Origin: Muribaculaceae bacterium
GTDB lineage: Bacteria; Bacteroidota; Bacteroidia; Bacteroidales; Muribaculaceae
Reading direction: 5' to 3'
Length of the DNA: 64,000 nucleotides
NCBI GenBank assembly: GCA_910573745.1
Contig: CAJSYI010000003.1
Location: forward strand, 1-64,000
In this document: positions 49,070 through 58,897 of the stretch, one piece after another
How positions within the stretch are numbered: the stretch's first letter is position 1
Layout of the letters: every line of letters begins with the position of its first letter
The notes under the pieces: model-generated
Told to the model about the DNA's origin: nothing
The model's input: only the letters and a program-made list of their open reading frames with translations
The model's database searches: none
Made by a program: the position numbers and the translations under genes

Positions 49070-50998
49070 ATGAAACGCAAAACGTTATTCGCATTTCTCC
49101 TGACAACGGCCTCGTGCCTGTGCGTCTCCGCAAACAGCAGTTTCCCTGTAGTCAACATACAAGGGAAGCCCTATTATTACTATGAAGTCAAAAAAGGAGA
49201 CTCACTCTATGGAATCGCCAAAAACAACGGATGGGACGCAGACAAGCTGTGCGAGCTTAATCCTATCGTATCGCTTGACTTGAAGAAAGGTGCGCGACTC
49301 TATTATCCTGTGAGCGACAAAGACGCAGTGGCATCCCGTCTTGCGGAAATCCAAGAACCGCAGACACGGGAGAAAAGGAAAATCCGCCATACCATAGCAA
49401 AAGGCGAGACGATATATTCCATTGCCAAGAAATACAATGTGCCTACCGACCTGATTTATTACCAGAATCCTTCTTCAAGGACAGGAATAAAGGCTGGTGA
49501 GACGCTTACGATCATCCCGGATGAAAAAATGGCTTCAGCCGAGCTTTATGTTATACAAAGCAAAGACACGCCTTACAGCGTCGCAAAAAAATTCAATTGC
49601 GCCGTGGAGGACATATTCAGGGAGAATCCTGGTGTGAGCGAAAAGAATTTCAAAGCGGGCTCCACAATACGCATAATGGCCAACGCAAACGTGCACCGAA
49701 TCAAAACAGAGACCGTGGAGGCTGAAAAGCTCGACAGCTTTGGCACGTACAAGGCAAAATCCAATGAGTCGTGGGAGGGCATAGCCCGCAGACTCGGGGT
49801 CGATGTGGACGACCTGAAAGAAATCAATCCGGAAGTCGAACTGAAGAAAAACACAATAATAGCTGTTCCAAAATATGAGAAGATAGAAGTGGAACGGCAA
49901 TATGTGGCCGAAGACCCTCGAGAAAAAACGGCAGAAGGTCGTATGGAAATATACGAAGATGTAAAGGCAAGCCTGACGCGGACACCGGGCAAAGTGAAAG
50001 TGGCAATAGTGCTCGACACGCCGTCGTCCAAGAAAGACCTGGAGTTCAGCCGTGGATTCATAACAGCCGTAGACCGCTATAAAAACGCCGGTTTTGAAAC
50101 CGACCTCGAAATAATCCGTGGAGACCGCGACAAAGATGCAGTGCTTGCAGACATCAAAGATTTCAAACCGAGTCTTATCATCACAACCGCAGACAAGGAT
50201 TATCCTGCCTATCTCAACGAATACGCCAAAGAGAACTATGCGATGGTAGTCAATCCTTTCGATCTGAAATCTGAAGGATTTCTTACAAATCCCGCAGCGA
50301 TACAATTGATGCCTCCATCGACACAGTTCAACGAATCTGTGGCTCGCTACATACTCGATAATTTCGAAGACCGCAAAATGGTGATTGTCTCTTCCAACAT
50401 CGAGGATGACCTTATTGCCAACCTTGTGGCAGACCAGACCGATTCTTCAAGAATACTCCAGCTGACTCTTGAGGAACTCCGGGATTATCCTTTCTACGAG
50501 ACGGAAAAGTACATAGTCTATGCCACGCCTACAAAAAAGAGCGACGTTACCTCTCTCATTGACATCATCCTTACCGCCAAAGAGGAATCGCCACTCACGG
50601 AAATAGCTGTCATCGGACGCCCCAGTTGGGTCACGATTGCCGACGGCCTAAAGGAAAAGCTGTTCCAAGCCGACGTATATATTCCTTCCCGTTTCTATTT
50701 CGATATGGAAAACGCTGACAGCAAAAACTTCCTTGCCGACTACAAGAGGATATTCAGGCATCCTCCACTGAAGTCATATCCCGTATACGCAGCTTCAGGC
50801 TACGATGTTGCAAATTACTTCCTCCCCCTTCAGGCATATGCGCCGGAAGACTACTCAATGACTCCGCAGACAGCCACCCCCCAACTGCAGGTCGATGTGG
50901 ACTTGTCAAGAATGCCCTCCGGAGGCTATCTCAACCCAATATGCTATATGATACGCTTCGCGCCTTTCCAATACATTGAGAAAATCAGAATAGAATGA
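49070..50998 (+). CDS. multi-LysM protein with a type I periplasmic-binding fold
   Basis: The 642-residue exported protein has a signal peptide and then four LysM-type modules (about residues 36-80, 105-150, 158-203 and 225-268; for example VKKGDSLYGIAKNN and IAKGETIYSIAKKYNV), which bind peptidoglycan sugars. Residues about 308-600 read as a type I periplasmic-binding fold (VKVAIVLDTPSSKKDLEFSRG, PSLIITTADKDYP, IAVIGRPSWVTI), without an ABC permease nearby. LpoA, which activates a peptidoglycan synthase in E. coli, has a similar fold, so a cell-wall role is plausible. It overlaps the next gene by four bases. Confidence 0.8.
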   Translation: MKRKTLFAFLLTTASCLCVSANSSFPVVNIQGKPYYYYEVKKGDSLYGIAKNNGWDADKLCELNPIVSLDLKKGARLYYPVSDKDAVASRLAEIQEPQTREKRKIRHTIAKGETIYSIAKKYNVPTDLIYYQNPSSRTGIKAGETLTIIPDEKMASAELYVIQSKDTPYSVAKKFNCAVEDIFRENPGVSEKNFKAGSTIRIMANANVHRIKTETVEAEKLDSFGTYKAKSNESWEGIARRLGVDVDDLKEINPEVELKKNTIIAVPKYEKIEVERQYVAEDPREKTAEGRMEIYEDVKASLTRTPGKVKVAIVLDTPSSKKDLEFSRGFITAVDRYKNAGFETDLEIIRGDRDKDAVLADIKDFKPSLIITTADKDYPAYLNEYAKENYAMVVNPFDLKSEGFLTNPAAIQLMPPSTQFNESVARYILDNFEDRKMVIVSSNIEDDLIANLVADQTDSSRILQLTLEELRDYPFYETEKYIVYATPTKKSDVTSLIDIILTAKEESPLTEIAVIGRPSWVTIADGLKEKLFQADVYIPSRFYFDMENADSKNFLADYKRIFRHPPLKSYPVYAASGYDVANYFLPLQAYAPEDYSMTPQTATPQLQVDVDLSRMPSGGYLNPICYMIRFAPFQYIEKIRIE

Positions 50999-56527: not shown

Positions 56528-56616
56528 GCAAATATTTCTGTATTCACGCGACACATAGTGTCAAAAACAGATAACCGTCATCTTTTTTGAACCACATATT
56601 TCTTAATCACCGTCCA

Positions 56617-57318
56617 ATGGCTTCAATGTACGTTACAATAATGGATCTCCCGCTTTTCAAGGGAATCTCTACTGATCATGTTTCGGCTTTCCTTGAAAAG
56701 ACAAGGCTTGAATTTGTCAAATATGCTCCCGGAGATGAGCTTCACCACCAACAGGAACAATGCAACGAGATGAGATATGTCATCTCAGGAAAAGTAGGCA
56801 TAATCCACAGCAATGTCTCCGGCTCCTGTTCCATCCATGAGGAAATCCCTACGGGTAGCGTTATCGGCGCAGACCGTCTCTTCGGCATGAACACCGTCTA
56901 CACAAACACCGCTGTTGCCCTTTCCGATGTGTGCATAATGAAATTCAGCAAGGATAAGTATCTTCAGCTTCTGGCCAGCGATGAGATATACTTAATGAAC
57001 ATACTCAATTACCTTTCCTTAAGGACTCAGCGATCTGTAGATGCCCTTAACCAACTGTATTCAGGAAGTCTTCTCGGTCATCTGGCGTATTGGCTGGAAA
57101 CACTTACCGAAAGAGATTCCAAAAACATAAAAGTGGACTGCACCATCGAATCCTTGAGTTCACTGACCAACATTTCAGCCGATGAACTGGAGAGACAGAT
57201 TGATTTCTTGAAACGAAGACGATTGGCATTGTATTCATCGCAGTCTTTCGCAATCCCTTCAAGACGCAGGCTTATCGAAGCCGCAATTGAAGAAAACTCC
57301 GCATCAGCCATCAGCTAA
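56617..57318 (+). CDS. Crp/Fnr-family transcriptional regulator
   Basis: The 233-residue protein has an N-terminal cyclic-nucleotide-binding-type beta-barrel (about residues 10-120, LPLFKGISTDHVSAFLEK, EEIPTGSVIGADRLFG), a dimer helix and a C-terminal domain (about residues 150-215) with a weak helix-turn-helix, TNISADELERQIDFLKRRRL. The phosphate-binding cassette of true CRP is not evident, so the ligand is unknown. ATG 56617 is preferred over an in-frame TTG at 56587. The HU gene follows after 45 bases. Confidence 0.85.
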   Translation: MASMYVTIMDLPLFKGISTDHVSAFLEKTRLEFVKYAPGDELHHQQEQCNEMRYVISGKVGIIHSNVSGSCSIHEEIPTGSVIGADRLFGMNTVYTNTAVALSDVCIMKFSKDKYLQLLASDEIYLMNILNYLSLRTQRSVDALNQLYSGSLLGHLAYWLETLTERDSKNIKVDCTIESLSSLTNISADELERQIDFLKRRRLALYSSQSFAIPSRRRLIEAAIEENSASAIS

Positions 57319-57363: not shown

Positions 57364-57681
57364 ATGGACAGACGAAGTTTTATTGATGCAATATCCGCCA
57401 AGACAGGAATATCCAAGGAAGACACAGGTCTTCTGCTCGACGCTTTGCGCGATACGATAGCCGAGCGTTGCTCCGAATCCGACAGCGTCGCCTTGCCGGG
57501 ATTCGGCGCGTTCGAGGCAAAAAAACGTCTTGAACGAGTGGCCGTCCATCCGGCCTCAGGAAAACGTCTGCTGATTCCGCCCAAAATATCCCTCGTGTTC
57601 AAGCCTTCCGCCATACTAAAGCAGAAAGTGAACCAGCCTACAACCATAACCGACCAATCCTCTGCACGACATGAACAATAA
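57364..57681 (+). CDS. HU-family DNA-binding protein
   Basis: The 105-residue protein has the HU/IHF fold: an N-terminal helical pair (RRSFIDAISAKTGISKEDTGLLLDAL), then ALPGFGAFEAKKRLERVAVHPASGKRLLIPP, the DNA-binding beta arm, and a final helix. A polar tail of about 15 residues is extra. HU proteins bend and compact DNA. Its end overlaps the next gene, which starts with a second HU domain, by 11 bases, so the two are translationally coupled and could form a heterodimer. Confidence 0.9.
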   Translation: MDRRSFIDAISAKTGISKEDTGLLLDALRDTIAERCSESDSVALPGFGAFEAKKRLERVAVHPASGKRLLIPPKISLVFKPSAILKQKVNQPTTITDQSSARHEQ

Positions 57682-58897
57682 GATCTCATTTCCAGAACTT
57701 GCGGCTCTTCTTTCGCTGCGCACCAGCCTCAGCAAAAAGGCGTGCGAGGACTTTCTGCGGGAATATGCCGCTACAGTAGCATCCGCCCTCGCAGAAGGGG
57801 AATACGTCCGAATCAAAGGATTCGGGACATTCAAGCTCAATGCCATCGAGCCACGAAAGAGCGTCAACGTCTCCTCCGGAAAAGAGATGGAAATACCCGG
57901 GCATTTCCGAATATCATTCACCCCTGCAAAGGAGCTTGCCGAAGCCATAAATTCCCCATTCGAAGCATTCGAAGCCGTAGAGCTTGCCGATGATTTTGAA
58001 GATGCCCAGGCAGAAGACACTTCCGTCATCACTGAATACACGGAAGCCGCCGATTCACCCGGACAACGCGCAATCGAAGAGACCTCCTATATTTTTGAAG
58101 ACAACGACTTAGCCGAACAGTCTTTGGAAAGTTCCATCAAAACCGAACCTGCCGACAACAATCCTGAAACACAATACCATACTTCTTCATCGGACGATCC
58201 ATCATTGAATCCAAAAGCTGAAGAAACGACTGACACGCCTCTCCCCAAACCAGAACCGGAGGAAACACCGGTATACGAACAGGCTGTGCTTGAACAGTTC
58301 CCATCACCTATAGGCAACAACGATGAAAAGCCTTCATTTTCCGAGAATGAGACACAGTCTGCTGATAATCGGAGACAGCATCACAGACTACGCAAGCATT
58401 TCATATTCGGCATATTGACCGGAATAATAATGTCCATTGCTGCGGCAGGAGTTTGTTATATGGTGTTGTATTACAAAGTTACCCGATTGAACGGATACCA
58501 TACAGAAATCCCCACGGTCGCAACAGACACGTTGCCATTGCCTGTAGCCACAGAAAACGTTGCCGACAAAAAAGCCGCAGACATTCCCAATGAACCTGAT
58601 ACGGTAAGCGTGCCCACACAACCGTCCGACCAACCGACCAAGCCTGAACCGGAATATGACACAATAACCACAACCCGCTATCTGACAACGATGGCGAAGG
58701 ATCATTACGGCAATTACCATTTCTGGCCTTACATATATGAAGAAAACAAAACGATTCTCGGTCATCCCGACCGTATACGCCCCGGCACGAAAGTGAAGAT
58801 TCCGCCATTGTCCAAATTCGGGGTCAGTCCTGACGATCCGGCAGACGTGAAAAGGGCAAAACAAAAAGGAGTGGAGATTTATTCACGATTCAGGTAA
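57671..58897 (+). CDS. HU domain-transmembrane-LysM protein
   Basis: This 408-residue protein has four parts. Residues 4-95 are an HU domain (FPELAALLSLRTSLSKKACE, VRIKGFGTFKLNAIEPRK). Residues 96-230 are a long acidic and proline-rich linker (KPEPEETP). A basic patch (RRQHHRLRKH, 234-243) leads to one membrane helix at 244-268 (FIFGILTGIIMSIAAAG). After a second Pro-rich linker, residues 333-380 read as a LysM module (TTMAKDHYGNYHFWPYIYEEN, IRPGTKVKIPP). By the positive-inside rule the HU domain is cytoplasmic and the LysM periplasmic, so the protein could tie DNA to peptidoglycan. That role is inferred. Confidence 0.85.
   Translation: MNNKISFPELAALLSLRTSLSKKACEDFLREYAATVASALAEGEYVRIKGFGTFKLNAIEPRKSVNVSSGKEMEIPGHFRISFTPAKELAEAINSPFEAFEAVELADDFEDAQAEDTSVITEYTEAADSPGQRAIEETSYIFEDNDLAEQSLESSIKTEPADNNPETQYHTSSSDDPSLNPKAEETTDTPLPKPEPEETPVYEQAVLEQFPSPIGNNDEKPSFSENETQSADNRRQHHRLRKHFIFGILTGIIMSIAAAGVCYMVLYYKVTRLNGYHTEIPTVATDTLPLPVATENVADKKAADIPNEPDTVSVPTQPSDQPTKPEPEYDTITTTRYLTTMAKDHYGNYHFWPYIYEENKTILGHPDRIRPGTKVKIPPLSKFGVSPDDPADVKRAKQKGVEIYSRFR

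Follow-up and report, generated by a model that had tools for sequence, protein, structure and literature searches.

To our knowledge, how chromosomes are positioned and anchored in Bacteroidota is poorly understood. The closest precedent for the gene pair described here is the group of CCDC81-type HU-SPOR proteins, and an HU domain anchored to the envelope is not in itself a new idea. These bacterial double-HU proteins (PF18174/PF18175), which carry a transmembrane (TM) segment and a SPOR domain and were reportedly delineated by Burroughs et al. 2017, are said to have a predicted role in chromosome partition. Our literature searches found no paper on a protein that joins HU to LysM.

The window, a stretch of 64,000 nt from contig CAJSYI010000003.1 of a gut Muribaculaceae bacterium (GCA_910573745.1), encodes a small HU protein followed directly by a second protein, the tether, that combines an HU domain, a membrane helix and a LysM domain (Table 1). 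The two open frames overlap by 11 nt, as stated in an earlier note on this DNA, which had also placed both genes behind a Crp-like gene. That gene is present here and absent from the other loci compared; it was rejected as an associated component because its neighbourhood is not conserved in those loci, and it probably lies outside the HU-LysM system. Scans for sigma-70 promoters and terminators gave scores near shuffle expectation. Dozens of diverged full-length orthologs rule out a chance fusion or a frameshift artefact as the origin of the tether frame; because orthologs at about 20-47% identity retain the HU-TM-LysM layout, the architecture is not due to chance.

Table 1 Features of the HU-LysM locus, in positions of the window.
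Feature	Position	Strand	Basis
Crp-like regulator	56587..57318	+	cNMP_binding E 2e-14; 5' of the small HU gene
Small HU protein, 105 aa	57364..57681	+	PF00216 E 1.3e-21; dedicated partner of the HU-TM-LysM protein
HU-TM-LysM (tether) protein, 408 aa	57671..58897	+	Pfam, NCBIfam, relatives, AlphaFold model
Tether HU domain, residues 1-100	57671..57970	+	PF00216 E 9e-19; model Z 11.1
Tether inner linker, residues 101-236, disordered, acidic, Pro-rich, predicted cytoplasmic	57971..58378	+	pLDDT, composition
Tether membrane helix, residues 238-273, predicted basic cytoplasmic flank	58382..58489	+	Hydropathy, AF2 helix, K/R asymmetry
Tether linker, Pro/Thr-rich, ~residues 274-324, predicted periplasmic	58490..58642	+	Low pLDDT
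Tether LysM domain and conserved C-terminal helix, residues 325-408	58643..58894	+	PRK11198, PDB profile matches, AlphaFold

Profiles, PDB matches and the AlphaFold model agree that residues 2-100 of the tether are an HU domain. Pfam PF00216 matches residues 9-94 at 67.9 bits and the small protein, which by this profile is an HU protein, at 77.1 bits (cut-off 22.4 in both cases). In an AlphaFold2 model built on a 65-sequence alignment, pLDDT exceeds 90 across the greater part of both the HU and the LysM domain, and the modelled HU part aligns to the Anabaena HU-DNA structure. The HU domain that the earlier note had seen at the N-terminus, and for which it had proposed structure prediction of the first ~100 residues as a check, is borne out on both counts. 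The tether has one membrane segment (Kyte-Doolittle, KD, 2.27 at 244; AlphaFold2 helix over the residues given in Table 1), whose flanks hold five K/R inside and two outside, and in 56 aligned relatives with one hydrophobic segment the N-terminal side carries more K/R in 52, equally many in two and fewer in two. The positive-inside rule relates such a flank bias to membrane orientation; because the K/R excess lies on the N-terminal side of the helix, the HU domain is predicted to be cytoplasmic and the LysM domain periplasmic, which agrees with the single N-in helix with a basic cytoplasmic flank that had been proposed. The inner linker, described there as long, acidic and Pro-rich, holds 36 D/E against 7 K/R in 136 aa, with pLDDT ~40-50 over most of its length, and in the 56 relatives it has a median length of 140 aa and a median net charge of -33. 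The outer linker of these relatives, under a definition slightly wider than that used for the window, spans 48-111 aa (median 80).

The LysM-like C-terminus that had been suspected is missed by Pfam alone: PF01476 gives no LysM match in the window's tether and matches only 4 of 32 relatives, at E up to 0.01, and the window's domain is without the usual GDTL start, although it contains the invariant residues Trp352 and Asn359. It is recovered by NCBIfam PRK11198 (Kbp LysM; residues 312-379, E 1.4e-9), by the sequence of Kbp in the PDB (E 1.4e-4) and by comparison of the tether family profile with solved LysM domains (Kbp 4e-14, TsaP 4e-6, Ecp6 4e-5). Structure prediction and profile comparison, the checks suggested for this end of the protein, both return the beta-alpha-alpha-beta LysM fold. 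The modelled domain (pLDDT ~97) aligns over residues 326-394 to the Kbp LysM with Z 7.7 and rmsd 1.9; matches to Kbp and to injection-system baseplate LysM chains together span Z 7.7-7.9, values near 8 that can come from common arrangements and with which the sequence evidence agrees here, and rmsd is 1.2-1.9 for three of the four best structure matches.

What this LysM binds is a separate matter. Its closest counterpart by sequence and fold, Kbp/YgaU (PRK11198), is generally known as a K+-binding BON-LysM protein without TM or HU, unlike the tether. Because the Kbp LysM sits in a cytoplasmic K+ binder, the tether LysM need not bind peptidoglycan; it might bind a protein or an ion, and the tether would then be a nucleoid protein that is fixed to the membrane but does not touch the wall. 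The presence of phage/contractile-injection baseplate LysMs beside Kbp among the nearest matches would suit such a reading, but the domain lies C-terminal to an N-in helix and would be periplasmic, and the family profile also matches TsaP and Ecp6, whose LysMs are extracellular or wall-associated. We consider this account very improbable and read the domain as a putative peptidoglycan binder. Two further observations concern LysM domains elsewhere. Apparent outer-membrane beta-barrel and OmpA-like proteins (L221, L222, L223; recognised by eye) end in the LysM subtype of the tether without an HU domain, and the window has, at 49181-49858 on the + strand, a 645-aa open frame with a secreted-like start and four LysM repeats (PF01476, E 5e-9 to 1e-4).

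In the genomes compared, which are mostly MAGs and come from overlapping samples, the tether is present in 33 of the 36 other sampled genomes of the window's genus and in every one of the 16 whose completeness reaches 90%; the three that lack it are 76-79% complete. Of 393 evenly sampled Bacteroidales genomes, 98 match the tether profile, a count that includes HU-only or LysM-only hits, and the full architecture in a single open frame occurs in at least 17 Bacteroidales families. It is also carried by a deep family outside the class Bacteroidia (f142), which at a guess from its sequences might be a Balneolaceae-like group, and in other orders of the class only HU-alone matches are found among the matches listed at the chosen threshold. 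Named tether records are mostly Muribaculaceae MAGs, with few isolates.

The small HU gene accompanies the tether throughout. It lies directly upstream of all 75 full-length tethers with readable flanks, at spacings from a 17-nt overlap to a gap of ~115 nt, mostly overlapping, and in a second set, drawn partly from the same genomes, upstream of 74 of 76, the two exceptions being tethers whose starts lie 41 and 67 nt inside their contigs. This linkage points to the small HU as an obligatory partner. Among 79 HU domains placed in one tree, which like all our HU trees has few columns and can be trusted only in its main splits, the tethers form one clade (99/94) and the small partners a second (100/97), each distinct from housekeeping HU and from IHF. 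A covariation analysis (MI-APC) of the HU pairs (126 pairs, Neff 69) was dominated by phylogeny and held no usable signal, and a mirror-tree correlation (r 0.83) was set aside as proof of HU-HU contact because shared vertical descent explains it. Natural fusions also bear on the pairing. One genome (G294, L230) has at the syntenic site a single 361-aa HU-HU-TM-LysM chain and no separate small HU, and versions of 754 and 643 aa stand at the same site in two others (G066, L231; G180, L232), these fusions occurring in two families other than the window's. Because the two HU domains are fused into one chain at the same syntenic site, the fusions provide strong evidence of the Rosetta-stone kind that the two HUs would work as one dimer, and they can be likened to an engineered single-chain IHF (PDB 2iie). 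The earlier suggestion that the two HU domains may pair thus gains support from conserved linkage, translational coupling and fusion.

In several Bacteroidales families the pair lies between ftsY-rimO and moxR-DUF58-batX-batA-batB-batC-batD; among 19 loci examined, moxR is 3' of the pair in 14 and rimO 5' of it in nine, with genes named by Pfam/NCBIfam at L209 and by BLAST or clustering at the other loci. At L209:5813-17436 and syntenic loci the block runs ftsY-rimO, HU pair, moxR-DUF58-bat, where bat denotes the Bat (aerotolerance) system. In the window genome moxR is on a different contig and the moxR-bat context is lost. Conservation of the pair upstream of moxR-DUF58-bat in several families is what a membrane-bound one-component regulator might show, with LysM sensing the state of the peptidoglycan and the HU heterodimer serving, like IHF, as an architectural regulator of particular promoters; a head, a TM segment and a periplasmic sensor are, as is generally known, the typical parts of such regulators. 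However, HU as a rule has little sequence specificity, and long disordered linkers on both sides would be poor at transmitting a signal, and we hold a regulatory role to be distinctly unlikely.

The residues that HU proteins use on DNA (numbered here as in E. coli HU-beta) are divided unequally between the two subunits. The window's small HU retains the equivalents of arm-tip Pro63 and Arg58 and has a net charge of +4; the tether HU retains Arg58 and has Val in place of the arm-tip Pro, so that the intercalating Pro63 is found in the arm of one subunit and not of both. Among the Bacteroidales pairs of the set, tether HUs have Arg58 in 22 of 22 and Val/Ile at the intercalating position in 22 of 22, and their small partners have Pro63 (22/22), Arg58 (22/22) and basic residues at 53-55 and 86. 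Over 80 HU pairs, Pro63 is present in 78 small HUs and Arg58 in 63, and Arg58 in 74 tethers; the median arm charge is +6 for the small HU in relatives with arms, against +4 in E. coli HU-beta, and 0 for the tether HU, whose net charge in relatives is ~0. Since the Bacteroidales tether HU is near neutral and without the intercalating Pro, DNA contact in this order would probably rest mostly on the small partner. Outside the class, the f142 tether HU has Pro63 in 10 of 10 and nine of the small partners are acidic; as an observation in its own right, the DNA-binding features of this family (L145-L162) look swapped, with the intercalating Pro on the tether HU and several small HUs acidic.

Armless tether HUs occur at L142 and L236 (the window's own family), at L234 and in the fused L230. 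Their four partners have net charges between -2 and -8, where other partners have a median of +4; this contrast between armless and armed pairs is clean only within Bacteroidales because the nine f142 partners are acidic too. We read these patterns as an HU pair that gains or loses its DNA-binding features together, which would support joint function. To judge from these residues, DNA binding by the pair is not universal, and because a few lineages combine an armless tether HU with an acidic partner, nucleoid tethering cannot hold for every member. The direct nucleoid-to-wall tether of the earlier note is therefore upheld in its HU-TM-LysM architecture and given up as a property of all members. 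The same lineages could indicate that the two HUs dimerise for contact with proteins rather than with DNA, as has been proposed for CCDC81, and that the tether fastens a different cytoplasmic partner to the wall. Arm loss with acidic partners at L142, L234, L236 and L230, the near-neutral tether HU and L233, a CCDC81-like armless double HU with TM and LysM recognised by eye only, are consistent with this idea, but the near-constant Pro63 and the strongly positive arms of the small HU in relatives with arms, together with the positive net charge of the window's own small HU, argue for DNA, and we regard a purely protein-docking pair as unlikely.

With both folds, the topology signature, the conservation, the coupling and the fusions computed directly, we favour, at slightly better than an even chance, an obligate HU heterodimer that clamps DNA and is tied through the membrane to peptidoglycan via LysM. 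Of the two subunits encoded, one would be soluble and the other held in the inner membrane by its one N-in helix, with a periplasmic LysM at its end, and translational coupling would match their amounts. The heterodimer that we infer to form in solution would clamp DNA in the cytoplasm in the manner of IHF and HU; in Bacteroidales the small subunit would give the intact intercalating arm and most of the positive charge, and the tether subunit dimerisation and Arg58. The acidic linker may be a flexible spacer with no affinity of its own for DNA, and the extended outer linker may let LysM reach and bind peptidoglycan glycan, whereby chromosomal DNA would be held at the envelope. A role in chromosome positioning or segregation would follow, although the neighbours in syntenic relatives are ftsY-rimO and moxR-bat, with no segregation genes, which counts against anchoring. 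A protein bridging nucleoid and wall directly would link the layout of the chromosome to growth of the envelope. The HU-LysM module is small, apparently core in the genus and found across many Bacteroidales families, and we regard the gene pair as a good candidate for a chromosome-to-cell-wall link.

Set against known systems, the pair shares with IHF (himA/himD) and HU alpha/beta heterodimers two diverged HU paralogs that likely pair, of which the small subunit carries arms, Arg58 and Pro63. Unlike them, it has one membrane-anchored subunit and scores far below the IHF alpha/beta and HU equivalog cut-offs of NCBIfam (tether 41.5 bits against 115, small HU 53.2 against 111 at best). With CCDC81-type proteins the tether shares an HU module inside, one TM segment and a wall-type domain outside. 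Those proteins hold two divergent HUs in one chain and a SPOR domain, whereas the tether has a classical PF00216 HU, a separate partner gene and a C-terminus that is LysM and not SPOR; against the PF18174 and PF18175 double HU it gives only a weak PF18175 match (E 0.13). The window genome also encodes a CCDC81-type protein (L163:694-1671, - strand, contig C6; PF18174 E 3e-17, PF18175 E 4e-11) with one hydrophobic segment and a C-terminus judged SPOR-like by eye, Pfam finding no SPOR at E 0.05, and thus appears to encode wall-linked HU proteins of two kinds. A further locus, L233:4653-6536, combines two armless CCDC81-like HUs (by eye; Pfam silent) with a very long charged linker, TM and LysM, and may be intermediate between the LysM tether and the CCDC81-SPOR proteins. 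The fused versions and the arm-loss series outline a possible route by which a DNA-packing fold becomes a module for docking proteins, as has been suggested for CCDC81. It is tempting to speculate, at somewhat less than an even chance, that an obligate and deeply conserved HU heterodimer ties the Bacteroidota chromosome to peptidoglycan and that the pair could be ancestral, through fusion and arm loss, to fused double-HU wall anchors including the CCDC81 type. The pair differs from that precedent in its classical type of HU, in a partner encoded by its own gene, in the outer LysM domain, in its syntenic setting and in the existence of natural fusions.
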